Assembly: GCA_016934575.1 (NCBI GenBank)
Contig: JAFGSN010000187.1
Span: forward strand, 1 to 54,332
From: Vicinamibacteria bacterium
GTDB lineage: Bacteria > Acidobacteriota > Vicinamibacteria > Fen-336
Direction of reading: 5' to 3'
DNA: 54,332 nucleotides
Below the pieces are notes generated by a model that saw only the letters and a program-made list of their open reading frames with translations, had not been told where the DNA came from and searched no databases. Each line of letters starts with the position of its first letter. The stretch's first letter is position 1. The position numbers were made by a program, and so were the translations under genes. Positions 28,308 through 37,890 of this stretch are shown here, piece by piece.

Positions 28308-29984
28308 ATGCCAAGAATCGAGATGGAGAAAGGCGACGGACGGAGCTGGTCGGTGCCTCTGCGCGGCGATCACGTCACGATCGGCCGCTCGCAAGACAAC
28401 GATATCTGCCTTCCCGACCAATGGCTGTCCCGGCATCATGCCGAGATCCGTCGTCGCGCGAACGATCACTACCTAATAGATCTCGGAAGCCGCAACGGCA
28501 GCTTCATCAACGAGTCTCGGGCGCGAAACGAAGAAAAGCTCAAGCATGGCGATCTCATAAGACTGGGCGAGAACCGGTTGAGATTCCTCGATGATGAGCG
28601 CGAACCGGCGTTCGGTAAGCCGACTCTCCCGACGGAGGCCGTGCCGCCCAGGACAAAAGTCTTCACCATGTCGGAAATGTTCGCCACACACGAGCCTTCC
28701 TTCGTGGAGAACGACGCATCGGCGCTTCAAAACCGTTCCCTTGGGCTGATCGCCGAAACGGCCAGCATCTTGCTCGTCGAGCATCGTCCCCTGCCGGATA
28801 TCTACGAACGCATTCTGTCGTTGTTGATGCGGGCGGTGCCCGCCGAGCGAGCGGCTATTCTTCGCCTCGAAGGCGATCCGCCGGAACCGACGATCAAGGC
28901 TTCCCGCAGTCGCTGCGGCGAGTCCATCGCGCGCATCAGCCGTTCGATCGCGCGCAAGGTCGTGAGGGAACGAGTCGTGCTTCTATTGCCCGACATCATG
29001 GAGGACGCGGACCTCAGCTCACGGGAGAGCATTCTCACGACGGGTATTCGCTCGGCGCTTTGCGCGCCACTTTGGTTCCGCGCTCCGTCTTCGGATCAGG
29101 ACGCGGTCATCGGCCTGGTCTATCTGGACACGCGCCGGCATGACCGCCCCCTGTGCGACGCCGACGTGCCCATCGCGAGCGCCCTGGCCAACATCGCGGC
29201 GGCCAAGATCGAAAACGTGCGCCTGCTCGATGAGAGCATCGAGAAACGGCGTCTCGAGGAGGACATCCGCGTGGCGGCTGAAGTGCAGCGCAGCCTGCTT
29301 CCGCGCGATCTGCCTCGCGTCGCCGGTCATGACCTGGCCGGCTCGACCCGACCCTGTCATGCCGTGGGAGGCGACTACTACGATCTGCTTGCCGATGATC
29401 ACCGGCTACTCCTGTCCCTCGGCGACGTCTCGGGCAAAGGAACGAGCGCCGCGCTGCTCATGAGCGTCCTGCGCGCCAGCGCGCGCGCCCACTGGCGCGA
29501 CGACGCGCCCGCGGCGGCCATGGCGCGGATCAATCGGACGGTCTTCGAAAACACGCCGGCCAATCGTTACGTGACCTTCTTTCTCGCGGCGCTCGACATA
29601 CGCGACGATCGACTTCGTTTCGTCAACGCCGGCCACAATCCCGGCCTGCTGATTCGCGCCGGCGGCGGCGTTGAACGCCTCCGGGACGGCGGCGTGGCCC
29701 TGGGCGTATTCGAAGAGGCGCATTATGAAGAGGGCGAAACGCGGCTGCTGCCCGGCGACACGTTGCTCCTGTACTCGGACGGCGTGACCGAAACATGGAA
29801 CGAGCGGGAGGAGGAGTTCGGCGAGGCGGGCCTGATCGGCGTGGTCACGCGCTGCCGCCGGCTCGGCGCGTCCGCGATCGAGTCCGAGATCTACCAGGAG
29901 CTCGAACGCTTCGCTCCCGGGACGCGCGCCATGGATGATCGGACTCTTCTCGTCGTCAAGCGCCTTCCATGTCCCGTCGCGTAG
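28308..29984 (+). CDS. FHA-GAF-SpoIIE/PP2C phosphatase
   Basis: FHA (VTIGRSQDNDICLPDQWLSRHHAEIRR), GAF-like middle, SpoIIE (EVQRSLLPRDLPRVAGHDLAGSTRPCHAVGGDYYDLL..LLLSLGDVSGKGTSAALLMSVLRA). Confidence 0.9.
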   Translation: MPRIEMEKGDGRSWSVPLRGDHVTIGRSQDNDICLPDQWLSRHHAEIRRRANDHYLIDLGSRNGSFINESRARNEEKLKHGDLIRLGENRLRFLDDEREPAFGKPTLPTEAVPPRTKVFTMSEMFATHEPSFVENDASALQNRSLGLIAETASILLVEHRPLPDIYERILSLLMRAVPAERAAILRLEGDPPEPTIKASRSRCGESIARISRSIARKVVRERVVLLLPDIMEDADLSSRESILTTGIRSALCAPLWFRAPSSDQDAVIGLVYLDTRRHDRPLCDADVPIASALANIAAAKIENVRLLDESIEKRRLEEDIRVAAEVQRSLLPRDLPRVAGHDLAGSTRPCHAVGGDYYDLLADDHRLLLSLGDVSGKGTSAALLMSVLRASARAHWRDDAPAAAMARINRTVFENTPANRYVTFFLAALDIRDDRLRFVNAGHNPGLLIRAGGGVERLRDGGVALGVFEEAHYEEGETRLLPGDTLLLYSDGVTETWNEREEEFGEAGLIGVVTRCRRLGASAIESEIYQELERFAPGTRAMDDRTLLVVKRLPCPVA

Positions 29985-30092: not shown

Positions 30093-33000
30093 ATGGCCGA
30101 GATCCGCGCGCTAGTCGTCGATAACGATGAACGCTTCATGGAGCTGCTCCGCTCCTCGCTGGACCCATATGGCGTCCGAATCGACGTCGCCAGCGACGCC
30201 AACGACTGTCTTGACCGCGTCGCCAGCCTGAGATTGGACGTTGTTTTCATTTCCGTGGAAGCTCCGGATAAATCGGGCTTTAAGCTGTTCAGTCGCGTCA
30301 AGGGGCTGAGCAAGGTTCTTCCGGTGGTCCTCGTCACATCGACCGTCCCTCCGGCGGACATGACCCTGCATCAGAAGCTCAAGATCCACGCGGACGATTA
30401 CTGGAACAAAAGCGATCTCACGCCGGAATCCGTCGTCAACCGCATGGCTAAGATCGTTCCGCTCAATGAACGACATCGCGCGGAAGCCGATGCGACTGAA
30501 AACGAAGACTTCATCGTCGTGGAGGACGCCGAGCTGGACGAGTTATTGAGCGATATCTCGCGGGCCGAGCGATCCATGTCGGAGAAAGCCGCGAAAAATT
30601 CGCCGCCCGACGCGCATCAAGAGCGCCTCGTGGCTCACGTGCACTCTCCCGTGCGCGGATTGAGCCTGGACGAGCTGGAGGCGCTCGTGGCCGAGCTGTC
30701 GGACTCGAGCTCCGCGCCGGCGTCCGCCGCCGCCTCTCCGACGACAAACCGCGGCGCCGACGGCAGTTCGGAAGAAAACGCGGAAATCCTGCGGCTGCGA
30801 AACGAGCTGGACGAAGCGCGGCGCATCGCTCGCGCTTCCCCGTTTTCTCAGGATTTCTTCCGTCTGCTCGAGAACGTTCGCGACAAGGAAAAGGAGATCT
30901 TCGACCTCAACGTGAAGCTCGAGGCGCGCAAGCGCGAGCTGTCATCAAGGACCGGAACGGCGCGCCAGTTGGCGGAGCAGCTTCTCGGAGCGCTCAGGTT
31001 AAGGGAGCATGAGCAGGAAATCATCTCCACGATGGAAGACGATCTCGGAGCGATTCGCGCCGAGCTGGAGAGAGAGCGCGCGGAGCGAGAGACGCTCCGC
31101 CTGCAACAGGACGCGGAAATCAAGCGTCTCGAAGCCGATTTCTCCCTCGAACGCGAACGCCATGCCGAGGCCTGCCGCCGCTATGAAACGACGATCACGG
31201 AAAACAGAACCCGTCACGCGGATGAGCTGAGAGACGAGGCGCAGGCCCGTCTTACCACCCTCGAGGCTATCGAGACGCGCCTGCGCGAAGAAAAGAACCA
31301 CGCCGTCGAGAACGCCATCGAGCGTGAGCGCCGGGAGCGCGACGAACGAATCCAGGAGCTGAAACGCGCCCACGAAGAGCAACTCGCCGCCCAGGAGCGT
31401 GAGCACGAGGCCGCGCGCAAGGGCGCTTCCGAGGAGCTGGCGCAGATACACGCGGCGCTGGAGAAACGCCTGGAAGAGATGCGCCGCGAGCGCGATGCGC
31501 GCGCCAGTCAACTCGCCGACGAGCACGCCCAGGCTTTGCTTGTCAAGGAGCAAGAGCACAAGAACGCGCTCGCGTCCATCGAGCGTCGATTGCATGATGA
31601 AGGTCTACGCGAGATCGAGGAGATCCGGCGGCAACACGCGGCGCAGTTGCGCGATAACGAGACGCTCCATGCCCAGGCGTTGGCCGAGGCCGAGCGCCGG
31701 CATCAGGGCGTCCTGGCGGAGATCGAGAAGCGGACGACGAGAGAGAAGAATGAAACGATACGCGCCTCGTCGTCCGAATGGGAAGGCCGACTGGCGCAGT
31801 TACGGCGCGAGCACGCCCAGGCGCTCGCGGCGCGCGAAGAGGAACACGAGCGGAAACGTCATGACATGCAGGCGCAGATCTCCGTGCAGTTGGGCCACGA
31901 GCGCGAGCAGACCGCCGAGCTCCGTCGCGTCGTGGACGAGATGTCGGCCGCGCGCGGCAGGCTCGAGCGACAACTCGACGAAACCCGCGATCAGCTCGAA
32001 TCGAAGCTGGCTGCCCTGGAAGTGCGCCACGCCGAGGCGCTGCACGAGGTCGAACAGAACCGTCTGATGGATCTTCAGACGGCCGAGAAACACCTGGCCG
32101 AGGAGAAGTCTCGGGCAATCGCCGCCGCGGAAGCCGGGTGGCGGCGGAAACTGGAACAGGCGCAACACGAGCGCGACGAGGCGATCGAGGCGTCGCGTCG
32201 GGATCTCGAGGCGCGAATGGCCGCCGCCGAGAAGTCGCAACGCGATCTGCGCGAGCGCGAGGCCTCGGAGATCACGGCAATGCGCCTGGAACTGAACCGG
32301 ATGCAGCGGGAATCGAGAGAAACGGAGTCGCGGCACGCGGAAGCGCTGCGTTTGGCCGATAAACAGCGAGACGACGCGCTGCGGGCCCTTGAAGGCCGCC
32401 TGAACGAGAAAAAGACCCAGGCGCTTTCGGCGCTCGACAACGAATGGCGCGAAAAGATGGAACAAGAGCGCAGGCGACATGCGGAAGCGCTGGCGCTTCT
32501 GAGACAGGAGCACGAAGCCGCATCCTCCGTTCAAGAAATGCAACTCCGGGAAATGCGGGAACGCGGGGGCGAGGAGATCAGATCTCTGCGCGCCGAAGCC
32601 CAGGATCTGCGCGACAAATTGTCGCTTATACAAGCCCAGCAATCCGAGGGACATCGACAGGCGGAAGTCGAACGCGACGCCGCTCTACAGGCCCTTGAGG
32701 CGCTTCTCGCCGAGAAGCAAGCGCAGGCGCTCGCGAAAACCGAGGAACAGTGGCGTCAAAAACTGAACGCGGCCAACCGCGAGAAGACCGATCTCCTCAT
32801 GACCGTGCAACGCGAACGCGAGCAGCTTGACGCTTCGGCGCACCAAGCGCAGGGCGAGGCGCTTGAAAAGAAAGAGGGCGAGCTCAAGATCGTCATGGCG
32901 GAAAACGCACGCCTCGAACAACAGCTCACGGAATCAAAGAGCGTCGTCGCGAATCATGAGCGCGCCATTGATTCGCTCCGGCGCGAGTCCGCCGATCAAG

Positions 33001-33206
33001 CTCAGACGATCGCCTCCCTCAAGGCGATGATCGGTGATTTTACCGTCGCTCCTGCGGGGCCGGATCAACCGATTCCAAAGGTCGCGGCCGCCGCCAAGCC
33101 GAATATGCCGCCACCCGCGACGCCCGGCGCAACGACACCCAAGCCCGCCGGGTCGTCTAGTCCGAAGGTGCCGCAGAAGACAACATCCGGATCAAATCGG
33201 CGATGA
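30093..33206 (+). CDS. Pseudo-receiver domain plus long coiled coil (FrzS/AglZ-like architecture)
   Basis: N-terminal receiver fold (RALVVDNDERFMELLRSSLDPYG..HQKLKIHADDYWNKSDLTPESVVNRM), then ~800 aa of E/R/A/Q-rich heptads, Pro-rich C-terminal tail. Confidence 0.82.
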   Translation: MAEIRALVVDNDERFMELLRSSLDPYGVRIDVASDANDCLDRVASLRLDVVFISVEAPDKSGFKLFSRVKGLSKVLPVVLVTSTVPPADMTLHQKLKIHADDYWNKSDLTPESVVNRMAKIVPLNERHRAEADATENEDFIVVEDAELDELLSDISRAERSMSEKAAKNSPPDAHQERLVAHVHSPVRGLSLDELEALVAELSDSSSAPASAAASPTTNRGADGSSEENAEILRLRNELDEARRIARASPFSQDFFRLLENVRDKEKEIFDLNVKLEARKRELSSRTGTARQLAEQLLGALRLREHEQEIISTMEDDLGAIRAELERERAERETLRLQQDAEIKRLEADFSLERERHAEACRRYETTITENRTRHADELRDEAQARLTTLEAIETRLREEKNHAVENAIERERRERDERIQELKRAHEEQLAAQEREHEAARKGASEELAQIHAALEKRLEEMRRERDARASQLADEHAQALLVKEQEHKNALASIERRLHDEGLREIEEIRRQHAAQLRDNETLHAQALAEAERRHQGVLAEIEKRTTREKNETIRASSSEWEGRLAQLRREHAQALAAREEEHERKRHDMQAQISVQLGHEREQTAELRRVVDEMSAARGRLERQLDETRDQLESKLAALEVRHAEALHEVEQNRLMDLQTAEKHLAEEKSRAIAAAEAGWRRKLEQAQHERDEAIEASRRDLEARMAAAEKSQRDLREREASEITAMRLELNRMQRESRETESRHAEALRLADKQRDDALRALEGRLNEKKTQALSALDNEWREKMEQERRRHAEALALLRQEHEAASSVQEMQLREMRERGGEEIRSLRAEAQDLRDKLSLIQAQQSEGHRQAEVERDAALQALEALLAEKQAQALAKTEEQWRQKLNAANREKTDLLMTVQREREQLDASAHQAQGEALEKKEGELKIVMAENARLEQQLTESKSVVANHERAIDSLRRESADQAQTIASLKAMIGDFTVAPAGPDQPIPKVAAAAKPNMPPPATPGATTPKPAGSSSPKVPQKTTSGSNRR

Positions 33207-33348
33207 TAATCGCCTCTTCCGCCCCCGATTGCAGATAGATCGGTATTGAGGCGCGATAGTGTTGACAGGCCTTGAGAAGCAGCTTGCGCTTCGGATCAGT
33301 AAGCCGCAAGGCGAACGCTTGATCTTCCGACTCTTCGGCGGAACTCAC
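33157..33348 (-). CDS. Small protein with one copy of a repeat also found in 51453..51791
   Basis: MSSAEESEDQAFALRLTDPKRKLLLKACQHYRASIPIYLQSGAEEAIIIADLIRMLSSAAPSD. GTG 33348 with ggag upstream. Same pattern as the repeat in the 51.5 kb ORF. Confidence 0.5.
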   Translation of the reverse strand: MSSAEESEDQAFALRLTDPKRKLLLKACQHYRASIPIYLQSGAEEAIIIADLIRMLSSAAPSD

Positions 33349-33424
33349 CCGAAGCGCTCCCCACACAGAGCAATCGAGTCGTCACTCATCGCTCTATCGA
33401 ACGACCGATCAGAACAGACGGTGA

Positions 33425-34174
33425 TTATTCTGCGTCCGGCGCTTCTTCCTTCTTCTTGCCGGAAGAAGACGTGCGGATCCGGCCCTCCTCGGCAACCGAG
33501 ACGCGTTTGCGCGGCGGCGTCTCCTGACGATCGCCTACCGTGACCAGGAGCACTGGAGGAATGACTTCCTCCATCTGCTTCCGATCGTCGAAGAAAGCGT
33601 TGCGGATCGCGGCGGCGTGGATCGCCACTTCCTCCATGTCACGGTTGCCGGCGTCCTCCAGCTCCGAGAGCTTCTCGAGCACTTCGAGAATCGCCCGATT
33701 GAGCGGATCGTCCTGACCCTTCTCCTTGTCCAGGTGCTTGCCCAAAGCATTCACGTCTTGAATGGAGAGCGGATAGATCCGATACCCGTCCTTGGGCGAG
33801 CTGTACACGGACTGCAAGACGCCGAGTATCACCGAAAGGTTTTTGTGATAGATCCCGCCCTTGTGCCAGCGCGTCATCATCGCCAGGATGCGCCCGACGA
33901 TGAACTCGTTGGGCTGCACGCCCGAGAGCAAGAGGAACGGATCCCTGTCTCCGATGAGAGCGTCGATGACCCAGTGATTCTCGATCTCGAGCATACGCAG
34001 GAAGACCGGGTAGTTCTCGGGAGTGATCCCGATCGTGCTCAGGAAGGTCGCGTAGGTGACCGCGGCCTCGACAGCCTCGGTCGTCCGGCATCCGAAGATC
34101 CCTTGCAGAAGCCGGTTCTCGATCTCCGAGATCTGAGCTTCAGTCCAGACTGGCTCGTCTATAACGTTGTTCAT
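33425..34174 (-). CDS. Conserved hypothetical protein, paralog 1 of a tandem pair
   Basis: Shares ENYPxFLxMLEIENHxVxDALxGxxDPFLLLS, GGIYxKxLxxxLGVLQxxYSSPxDGYxIYxLSIxDVxxLGKHLxKxKGQ with the neighbour. ATG with aggggt upstream. Confidence 0.85.
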   Translation of the reverse strand: MNNVIDEPVWTEAQISEIENRLLQGIFGCRTTEAVEAAVTYATFLSTIGITPENYPVFLRMLEIENHWVIDALIGDRDPFLLLSGVQPNEFIVGRILAMMTRWHKGGIYHKNLSVILGVLQSVYSSPKDGYRIYPLSIQDVNALGKHLDKEKGQDDPLNRAILEVLEKLSELEDAGNRDMEEVAIHAAAIRNAFFDDRKQMEEVIPPVLLVTVGDRQETPPRKRVSVAEEGRIRTSSSGKKKEEAPDAE

Positions 34175-34236
34175 CGTGTTACCCCTTCAACCCTCACGCT
34201 GTCCCGTAACCGTTGGTTCCCGAATCGTTCGCGCGG

Positions 34237-34929
34237 CTAGTCCGCGAACAAGGAACGCGGGGCCGTCTCGTCTGCGCGATAGTCGCCCCTTACCAGTAGA
34301 ACTTGCGGGATGCAGTCCTCCAGCATCTTCGTGTTGTCGAAGAAGTTCCCGCGGATTCTGATCGCCTGCCGAGCCACCTGTTCCATCAAATCGTCTGAGC
34401 GCACGCCCTCAAGGGAACCGACGCGGTCGAGGATGTCCAGGATGCAGCGGTTGCGTTCGTCCTTCTGGCCCTTGTCCTTCTCGAGGTGCTTGCCAAGGTT
34501 GTCCACGTCGGCGATGCTCAGTTTATAGATCTTGTAGCCATCCCGCGGCGAGCTGTAGGCATTCTGCAACACGCCCAGAACGATGGCCAATGTCTTGGGG
34601 TAGATCCCGCCCGGACGCCATCGCGTCAGCAACATGAAGCACTTGGCGATGAGATATCCATTGGGCGGAATGGTGGAGAGGAGTAAAAAAGGATCGCTGT
34701 TCCCCAAGAGCGCGTCGAGCACGTAATGATTTTCGATCTCGAGCATCTTCAGGAACAGTGGGTAGTTCTCGGTGTCCAGGCCAGAGAGCCTCAGAAATCG
34801 CGCATAGCTCGTCGCCGCCTCCACCGATTCCGGCGTTCGGCTCGCCATGATTTGCTGGAGAATCTTGTTCTCCACCTGTAAGATCGACTCCCGTGCCCAG
34901 AGCTTTGACGCTGCTTCCTGTTTCGCCAT
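34237..34929 (-). CDS. Conserved hypothetical protein, paralog 2 of a tandem pair
   Basis: Collinear with the 33425..34174 protein along nearly its entire length. aaggag upstream; ATG at 34929 preferred over the GTG at 34941. Confidence 0.85.
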   Translation of the reverse strand: MAKQEAASKLWARESILQVENKILQQIMASRTPESVEAATSYARFLRLSGLDTENYPLFLKMLEIENHYVLDALLGNSDPFLLLSTIPPNGYLIAKCFMLLTRWRPGGIYPKTLAIVLGVLQNAYSSPRDGYKIYKLSIADVDNLGKHLEKDKGQKDERNRCILDILDRVGSLEGVRSDDLMEQVARQAIRIRGNFFDNTKMLEDCIPQVLLVRGDYRADETAPRSLFAD

Positions 34930-35146: not shown

Positions 35147-35974
35147 TCAATCCTCGTCCAGGCCTTCAGCGTCCTCGAAACGCTCCGTCCCCGTAGCATC
35201 AACCTCCATGACCGGATCCTCTTCACCAAGGCTCGCCTCCGACGGTCGCGGCGCCGCGATCGCTTTTTTAAGGCCTTCGACGTCGACTTCCTCCCCCAGA
35301 ACCTCGGCGAATTCCTCGATTCTCGGCAGCTCCGAAAGATCCTTGAGTCCGAAATGAACGAGAAATTCCTTGGTCGTTCCGTACAGCATCGGACGACCGA
35401 CGACGTCCTTGCGACCCTCGATCCTGATCAGGCGCCGTTCGAGCAGCGTCTTGATCACACCGCCGGACTTGACGCCGCGCAGCTCGATGATCTCGGGCAG
35501 AGTCACCGGCTGCTTATAAGCGATCACGGCCAGAGTCTCGAGAGCCTGCACCGACAGGCGCGTCGGCGCCTTGGGGTGCAACAACTCGCGCACCCAGTCG
35601 TTGTATTCAGGGCGCGTCGTGATCTGGTATCCGCCCGCCACCTCGACGAGCTGCAAGCCGCGTCCCGCGCGGGCATAGTCGTTCCGAAGATCGTCGAGAG
35701 CGGATGACCACTCCGCCTGTTCGACGGCGTCGCCGATGACCCGCGTGATTTCGCGCGTCGTGACCGGCTGCGGCGACGCAAAGATGAGCGCCTCGAGCAC
35801 GGCGCGCAGATCTTCAGGCGGAAGCGTAAGCGCCTCATCGCCTGATGAGCCCGTCTCTCGCGCCTCGCCGACATCCGACGCGATGTCACCGGCATTGGCG
35901 TTCTCCGGCCGGACTTCTGCCGTCTCATAAAGCGGCGGTTCCTTTTCGCGTTCTTCTTCCATTTCTTCAAGCAC
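35147..35974 (-). CDS. scpB: Segregation and condensation protein ScpB
   Basis: VLEALIFASPQPVTTREITRVIG, GGYQITTRPEYNDWVRELL, SVQALETLAVIAYKQPVTLPEIIELRGVKSGGVIKTLLERRLIRIEGRKDVVGRPMLYGTTKEFLVHFGL. Confidence 0.95.
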   Translation of the reverse strand: MLEEMEEEREKEPPLYETAEVRPENANAGDIASDVGEARETGSSGDEALTLPPEDLRAVLEALIFASPQPVTTREITRVIGDAVEQAEWSSALDDLRNDYARAGRGLQLVEVAGGYQITTRPEYNDWVRELLHPKAPTRLSVQALETLAVIAYKQPVTLPEIIELRGVKSGGVIKTLLERRLIRIEGRKDVVGRPMLYGTTKEFLVHFGLKDLSELPRIEEFAEVLGEEVDVEGLKKAIAAPRPSEASLGEEDPVMEVDATGTERFEDAEGLDED

Positions 35975-36863
35975 CCGCCGGCGGAGCGATCGTCTCGGGT
36001 CCGATGGGACGGAAAATCCGGATCGGCCCGAACAGCCCCCGCTGATACACTTTGATGCGACGAAGTCGGATCAACTCAAGCAGCGCCAGGAAAGTCACGA
36101 TCATGTCGGACTTGGTCCGCTCGTGCTCGAACAGATCGAGGAACTCGATCGACTCGCCTTCTCGCAACAACGTGAAGATCTCCCCCATGCGCTCTTCGAT
36201 CGACTTGCCCGACGGCCGCACTTCGTGCGCCAGCAGAACCTTGCGCCGATCGAGAAGCTCCTTGAAAGCGCCGATCAAGTCGAACAGTCCGACCTCCAGA
36301 TTCTCGTCGTCCGCGTCGCCGAAGGACGGCACGGCCCCGTCGGGACGGATCCACGTCGCGGCGCGAATCTCGCGCTTCTGATGAAGCAGGCCCGCCGCTT
36401 CCTTGTAGCGCTGGAACTCCAACAAGCGCTGCACGAGTTCTTCGCGCGGATCTTCATAGGGCTCCTCGCCCTCGGCTTCGGCCGGCGCGAGAGGCACGAG
36501 CATCTTGGATTTGATATGGATCAGAGTGGCCGCCATTACCAGGAACTCTCCGGCCAGCTCGAGATTCAGCTCCTTCATCAGATCGAGATATTCCATATAC
36601 CGCCGCGTGATGGGCGCGATGGGAATATCGTGAATGTCGATCCGTTCCCGGCGAATGAGGTAGAGCAGAAGGTCGAGAGGGCCTTCGAAAATCGGAAGCT
36701 GGATTCTGGGAACGTCTTCAGGCAGCGTCGACTCGACGCCCGCGGGAACGTCGACCTTATCCGGACGGGAGGGCGCGGCGGCGGCGTCATCGGCCGGCGA
36801 CGGGGCCCCCTCGCCTTCCTGGCCGATCTCTCGATCGTCCGTCACGTCGTCATCCACGCTCAC
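35967..36863 (-). CDS. scpA: Segregation and condensation protein ScpA
   Basis: IFEGPLDLLLYLIRRERIDIHDIPIAPITRRYMEYLDLMKELNLELAGEFLVMAATLIHIKSKMLVP. GTG 36863 just after the trpS stop. Overlaps scpB start. Confidence 0.93.
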   Translation of the reverse strand: MSVDDDVTDDREIGQEGEGAPSPADDAAAAPSRPDKVDVPAGVESTLPEDVPRIQLPIFEGPLDLLLYLIRRERIDIHDIPIAPITRRYMEYLDLMKELNLELAGEFLVMAATLIHIKSKMLVPLAPAEAEGEEPYEDPREELVQRLLEFQRYKEAAGLLHQKREIRAATWIRPDGAVPSFGDADDENLEVGLFDLIGAFKELLDRRKVLLAHEVRPSGKSIEERMGEIFTLLREGESIEFLDLFEHERTKSDMIVTFLALLELIRLRRIKVYQRGLFGPIRIFRPIGPETIAPPAGA

Positions 36864-36888
36864 GATCGCGCTTTGTCCAATCGCCGGT

Positions 36889-37890
36889 TCAGTGCTGAAC
36901 GCCCATGGCCGTTCTCGCCTCGTCCATGGTCGCCCGGGCACGCTCGCGCGCCCGACGAGACCCCTCGCGCAGAATGTCCCAGACCGTGTCCGGGCGAGCC
37001 GCAAGCTCCGGTCGTCGCGCATGAATGGGGCCAAGTCGTTCCAGGACATGATCCGTGAGCCTGGCCTTGCAGTCGAGGCAGCCGATCCCGGCGCCGCGGC
37101 ATCCGGCCGCGGCCCACTCGAGCGTCGCTGGCGAAGAGAAGGCTCGATGCAAATCGAACACCGGGCACTTCTCCGGATCGCCGGGATCGACACGACGCTT
37201 TCGATTCGGATCGGTGATCATGGGTTTGATCTTCCGGCGCAGCTCCTCGGGCGTGTCCTTGAGAAAGATCGCATTATCGAACGATTTCGACATCTTGCGT
37301 CCGTCGGTTCCGGGAATCCGCGGCGAAGGCGTGAGCAGCGTTTTCGGCTCTGGGAAAACCGGCCGGTACAGGTTGTTGAAGCGGCGCACGACCTCGCGCG
37401 CCAGCTCGATGTGGGGCGCTTGATCCTCACCCACCGGGACCGCGTCGCTCTTGTAGATGACGATATCGGCCGTCTGGAGCAGGGGATATCCGAGAAATCC
37501 GTAGGTTGACAGATCGCGGCCCATGAGTTGTTGCTGTTGTTCTTTATAAGTCGGAACCCTCTCGAGCCAGGGCAGCGGCACGATCATCGACAGCAACAGG
37601 TGCAACTCGGCGTGCTCCGGCACCAGGCTCTGCACCATGAGCGTCGAGCGCTCCGGATCCAGGCCCGCCGCCAGCCAGTCGACGGCGACCTCGAGGATGT
37701 TCCGGCGTATGGCAGATGGCTCCGCGTAGTCCGTCGTCAACGAGTGCCAGTCCACAATGCCGAAAACGCATTCGTACGAATCCTGCAGTTGAATCCAGTT
37801 GTCAAGCGCGCCCATCAGGTTCCCGAGATGCAGGGCGCCCGTGGGGCGCATTCCGGAGAAAATCCGCGGTTTATTCATGGCTTCAGGCAA
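36889..37890 (-). CDS. trpS: Tryptophan--tRNA ligase
   Basis: FSGMRPTGALHLGNLMGALDNWIQLQ (HIGH-like), VGEDQAPHIELAREVVRRFN, KMSKSFDNAI. Confidence 0.95.
   Translation of the reverse strand: MPEAMNKPRIFSGMRPTGALHLGNLMGALDNWIQLQDSYECVFGIVDWHSLTTDYAEPSAIRRNILEVAVDWLAAGLDPERSTLMVQSLVPEHAELHLLLSMIVPLPWLERVPTYKEQQQQLMGRDLSTYGFLGYPLLQTADIVIYKSDAVPVGEDQAPHIELAREVVRRFNNLYRPVFPEPKTLLTPSPRIPGTDGRKMSKSFDNAIFLKDTPEELRRKIKPMITDPNRKRRVDPGDPEKCPVFDLHRAFSSPATLEWAAAGCRGAGIGCLDCKARLTDHVLERLGPIHARRPELAARPDTVWDILREGSRRARERARATMDEARTAMGVQH

Follow-up and report, generated by a model that had tools for sequence, protein, structure and literature searches.

Our analysis brought out an uncatalogued protein family, of which more than 100 members were collected, and which is represented by two tandem genes, P2 and P1, in a 54,332-nucleotide stretch of DNA from a Vicinamibacteria bacterium (Acidobacteriota; contig JAFGSN010000187.1 of assembly GCA_016934575.1; hereafter the window). 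Judged from comparisons across genomes, the two products are very probably obligate physical partners, and a small third gene, S, is in all likelihood part of the same system. The three may well form a positioned assembly, in which a P1–P2 heteromer would be docked by S to a placement machinery, a reading that we favour while doubting it slightly more than we trust it. The features concerned are listed in Table 1.

Table 1. Coordinates and strands of the features discussed; positions are those of the window unless a locus is named.
Feature	Position	Strand	Description
P2	34237-34941	-	Upstream paralogue, first gene of the P2-P1-S run; 234 aa from GTG 34941
P1	33425-34174	-	Downstream paralogue; 249 aa; variable charged C-terminal tail, probably disordered
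S	33157-33366	-	69 aa; ~46-aa domain with motif KxCxxYRxxxPxYLxS
FrzS/AglZ-like protein	30093-33206	+	1037 aa; convergent with P2-P1-S; genome outside Myxococcota
FHA-GAF-SpoIIE (PP2C) phosphatase	28308-29984	+	SpoIIE 7.3e-47, FHA 2.1e-21; just upstream of the FrzS-like gene
P2-P1 fusion	L064:8056-9384 = L036:1492-2820		442-aa ORF; spirochaete G594

A conserved tandem pair

P1 and P2 are 53% identical (72% positives) over 217 aa with 4 gap positions (BLASTP, E 5e-85), which bears out the sequence-only reading that these adjacent, same-strand genes align over almost their full length. A charged low-complexity tail is present in P1 only of the two, as that reading had also held; the P1 orthologues carry a tail too, of variable sequence. 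For P2, the in-frame ATG at 34929 is the likelier start and fits the MAKxE-like start of the orthologues. Neither protein gave a match above the cut-off in Pfam, NCBIfam, PHROGs or PADLOC, and profile comparison with PDB sequences returned chance-level matches alone. The earlier view that the pair carries no known domain thus stands, no confident profile match to a known family having been found. AlphaFold2, run on alignments without the more divergent paralogues, gave unusable folds for both P2 (24 alignment rows, pLDDT 53, pTM 0.40) and P1 (25 rows, pLDDT 44, pTM 0.27), and the idea of a scaffold therefore finds no structural support in these models.

A contig scan located 13 loci in MAGs of Acidobacteriota, Desulfobacterota and Spirochaetota, and wherever the flanks were adequate both genes were present, always in the order P2–P1. 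Orthologues are ~67–81% identical and paralogues ~50–57%, indicating that the duplication predates the spread of the pair. In a tree of 118 members, built by a quick search with no bootstrap, the P2 clade (35 rows, SH-aLRT 96) stands apart from the P1 clades, and the same groups branch within it as within the P1 clades. P1 and P2 distances run parallel across 13 genomes (r = 0.93), and dN/dS ranges from 0.025 to 0.127 for the pairs with measurable dS, several dS values exceeding 1 and lying near saturation. Moreover, the two halves of the fused ORF of G594 place in the P2 clade and the P1 clade, respectively, with the P2 tail and the P1 start absent at the join; this ORF comes from a single assembly of unknown quality and could reflect an assembly or sequencing error. 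Taken together, the low dN/dS, the parallel distances and the fused ORF argue that P1 and P2 are an obligate pair. The selection proposed earlier from the retention of two diverged copies is supported by these ratios, and the homologues, spread over several phyla, are far from a family confined to one genome with dN/dS near 1. The suggestion of a heteromer is likewise strengthened by a tandem order that never varies, by P1 and P2 trees that mirror each other and by the one fusion ORF.

The S domain and its FrzS-like and ParA neighbours

The S gene lies 3' of P1 and overlaps the end of the convergent FrzS/AglZ-like gene by 50 bases; the window's own S matches the S HMM at 2.4e-24, its sequence being among the seeds of the model. 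The 46-aa domain is found next to P1 in all nine group A loci read (the window, L004, L005, L008, L011, L013, L014, L067 and L091). A search of 46 genomes, whose counts are not phylogenetically independent, detected S in 15/15 carriers of the two-gene type, one copy each, and in 0/21 non-carriers, and left it undetected in 10/10 spirochaetes with multiple paralogues (4–7 copies) or a fused gene. Some of the positive carriers had seeded the model, and their matches were expected; the co-occurrence is nevertheless informative, because all six non-seed carriers (G299, G302, G303, G305, G817 and G820) have S and no non-carrier does. In addition, a protein of 81–128 aa encoded directly 5' of P2 in the group B spirochaetes looks like a remote relative of S (hhalign 86%, reversed control 0.1%).

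The characterised FrzS and AglZ proteins come from Myxococcota, a phylum outside the range of our genome search. The gene convergent with P2–P1–S in the window encodes a protein whose N-terminus matches Pfam Response_reg (2.1e-12) and which has FrzS (2gkg, 5.5e-8) among its best PDB matches. In this pseudo-receiver, the phospho-acceptor Asp is replaced by Ser in the window and by Ser or Ala in 7/7 homologues, and H93 and Y103 are invariant in 7/7 homologues, with the same spacing of 10 as His92 and Tyr102 of FrzS. These two FrzS residues are necessary for leading-pole localisation, and AglZ has both (PMC1974792). The receiver is followed by a long charged region rich in E, K, R, A and L, coiled-coil-like by eye. 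A homologue adjoins P2–P1–S in 7/9 group A loci, the exceptions being those of G298 and G817. In the window and at L004 this gene converges on the run, whereas in Desulfobacterota it points the same way, and since both orientations occur, the linkage is more than operon inertia. A search at E < 1e-13 detected the subfamily in each of seven group A carriers but not in the non-carriers compared, which were four genomes of the same phylum and none of them Desulfobacterota. G298 has three genes of the subfamily (L078, L081 and L084), none of them beside its P2–P1–S locus in the 20 kb read there. The sequence-only reading was right in reporting scpBA beside the pair, but its account of the neighbourhood overlooked both this linked gene and S, whose co-occurrence with P1 and P2 is strict among the two-gene carriers.

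In the six group B carriers (G299, G300, G672, G302, G303 and G305), the S domain makes up the C-terminus of a 134–287 aa protein encoded next to a ParA ATPase (AAA_31 match 6e-43). These adaptor-like proteins all (6/6) share a conserved N-terminus, MARKRLIKGxNAxRV(E/G)xRI, which carries a net charge of +3 to +5 over 20 aa and is separated from the S domain by a variable linker. The short S proteins of group A do not have this basic N-terminus. In the partners of ParA/MinD ATPases, a positively charged N-terminus contacts the ATPase, and the remainder of the protein serves the cargo (PMC10241942; PMC12204374). Read by analogy, the S domain would bind the cargo, for which P1 and P2 would be the candidates. 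A ParA gene beside S was not seen in the window or in the other group A loci, and the spirochaete carriers have no clear-scoring FrzS-like protein of the window's type, so that the ParA and FrzS-like links never share a locus.

Alternative readings and the spread of the pair

Signalling genes also accompany the pair, and P1 and P2 could instead form a regulatory heteromer, acting perhaps as target or antagonist within a partner-switch or kinase/phosphatase circuit, with the positioning genes incidental. We consider this possible but improbable. Around the pair, the group B spirochaetes encode an RsbW-like HATPase_c_2, two STAS proteins, an alpha/beta hydrolase and a SpoIIE-type phosphatase; the group C neighbours include a PPP-type metallophosphatase (Metallophos 3.2e-13), divergent kinase-like proteins and a 311-aa protein with an invariant DEDRNPNNY and 0 matches to PDB sequences; and the FHA–GAF–SpoIIE phosphatase of the window, which clusters with the phosphatases of L007, L009 and L060, is possibly associated with the P2–P1–S system. 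However, such neighbours vary by group and are not visible at the Desulfobacterota loci, while S accompanies the pair throughout groups A and B and takes the form of a ParA-type adaptor in spirochaetes. Individual loci illustrate these surroundings. At L007:4849-10067, an RsbW-like HATPase, two STAS proteins, an alpha/beta hydrolase and an undescribed 358-aa protein lie around the pair. L056:7156-15429 and the similar L057–L066 are spirochaete clusters with 4–7 paralogues, a PPP-type metallophosphatase and the 311-aa DEDRNPNNY protein, and clusters of this type also encode a membrane protein with a C-terminus that is LysM-like in look.

A role in polar surface motility, in which P1–P2–S would serve the FrzS/AglZ-like protein as effector and act on type IV pili or a gliding apparatus, would draw on the linkage in most group A loci, on the hallmark residues of FrzS and on the occurrence of the gene in both orientations. 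It is nonetheless unlikely, given that the spirochaete carriers have no FrzS-like protein of this type at E < 1e-13, that pilus or gliding genes were not recognised beside the loci, and that Ras-like small GTPases (PF00025) do not distinguish carriers from non-carriers. Present in all 15 genomes checked, PF00025 proved uninformative as an indicator of MglA. Even less can be said for chromosome organisation, in which P1 and P2 would be accessory proteins of ScpAB/SMC. In the window, ~205 bases separate the start of P2 from the end of scpB, and the sequence-only reading had put its emphasis there; this adjacency is real but unique to the window among the loci read, no other carrier locus having scpAB near the pair, and the conservation of the scpBA neighbourhood across homologues that had been proposed as a check was not found. 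The relatives G066 and G221 retain uvrC–M50–trpS–scpB in the same order with the pair absent, so that the adjacency is best regarded as incidental, and of 297 genomes of the phylum in the first sample, only one carries the pair. The linkage not being conserved, an accessory role for ScpAB/SMC is highly improbable and can be taken as largely refuted. In the window, the mechanical ScpA ORF (35967-37193, minus strand) runs into trpS (36889-37890), and the true ScpA start probably lies at ~36660-36880.

The pair occurs sporadically elsewhere too. Among closer relatives, 4/149 genomes carry it, that of the window included, which is the sole carrier among 14 sampled in its own family (0/13 further members); the pair is found in 7/243 genomes of a Desulfobacterota order and in 31/248 of a spirochaete class, many of the latter with 4–7 paralogues. 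The P2 of the window is 75–77% identical to those of Acidobacteriota carriers and 70–73% to those of other phyla, whereas the corresponding values for UvrC drop from 54–55% to 37–41%. This patchy spread, together with a P2 identity that falls far less than that of UvrC across phyla, favours horizontal transfer of the pair, although strong constraint could contribute to the contrast. The GC3 of P1 and P2 (0.79) resembles that of the neighbours (0.73–0.77) and therefore does not indicate a recent import. The same patchiness, as in the window's family and the Desulfobacterota order, and the same contrast with UvrC might point to a mobile or defence module, spread horizontally and with no housekeeping role. 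We regard this as distinctly improbable: the pair had 0 matches in phages, plasmids and viral contigs, PADLOC gave nothing better than a match to Cas11f (0.016, 39 residues), which is not credible, integrase and defence genes were not recognised at the loci, and the composition of the genes is that of their surroundings.

The proposed assembly and known systems

The partnership of P1 and P2 is well supported; a physical complex, its docking by S and its spatial positioning are what we infer from genomic association. In the positioned assembly that we prefer, P1 and P2 would together make up a soluble cytoplasmic heteromer, probably all-helical, which may serve as a scaffold or as cargo, and the S domain would be the docking module that ties it to protein-placing machinery. 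In spirochaetes, the assembly would be placed by the ParA ATPase through the protein in which a linker joins a basic N-terminus to a C-terminal S domain, while in the window's organism and in Desulfobacterota it would be tied to the FrzS/AglZ-like pseudo-receiver polarity protein. Once placed, the assembly may act in motility, envelope growth or signalling, and the signalling-type genes near the spirochaete pairs (phosphatase, kinase-like, STAS and RsbW-like) suggest that phospho-signalling switches it. A broader proposal, which we put forward only tentatively, is that P1–P2–S lies at the heart of a cytoplasmic multi-protein structure not described before, sporadic in at least three phyla and placed either by ParA and its adaptor or by a FrzS-like protein, with 4–7 paralogues under kinase/phosphatase control in some spirochaetes.

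Both ParA-type ATPases and FrzS/AglZ-like proteins have been recognised as carriers or landmarks, yet for many of them no cargo or partner is known. A strongly conserved obligate pair that occurs one-to-one with an adaptor domain provides a concrete candidate cargo, and the candidate contacts are those between P1 and P2, between P1/P2 and S, and between the adaptor and ParA.

Three known systems invite comparison. The genes around the group B pair recall RsbU/RsbW/RsbV partner switching in their HATPase_c_2, STAS and SpoIIE phosphatase components; however, P1 and P2 resemble none of the components of that system, a sigma factor was not seen, and such genes are absent around the Desulfobacterota loci. 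The FrzS/AglZ-like protein of the window shares with FrzS and AglZ of Myxococcus xanthus a receiver that lacks the acceptor Asp and has equally spaced equivalents of His92 and Tyr102, followed by a long charged region that looks like coiled coil. It differs in its linkage to P2–P1–S, which is not described for either protein in the literature consulted. With respect to ParA/MinD positioning (McdA–McdB and kin), P1/P2 as presumed cargo and S as presumed docking domain belong to undescribed families and the window has no ParA beside S, but the spirochaete carriers display the same arrangement, a ParA gene beside a protein built of a basic N-terminus, a linker and a C-terminal domain.
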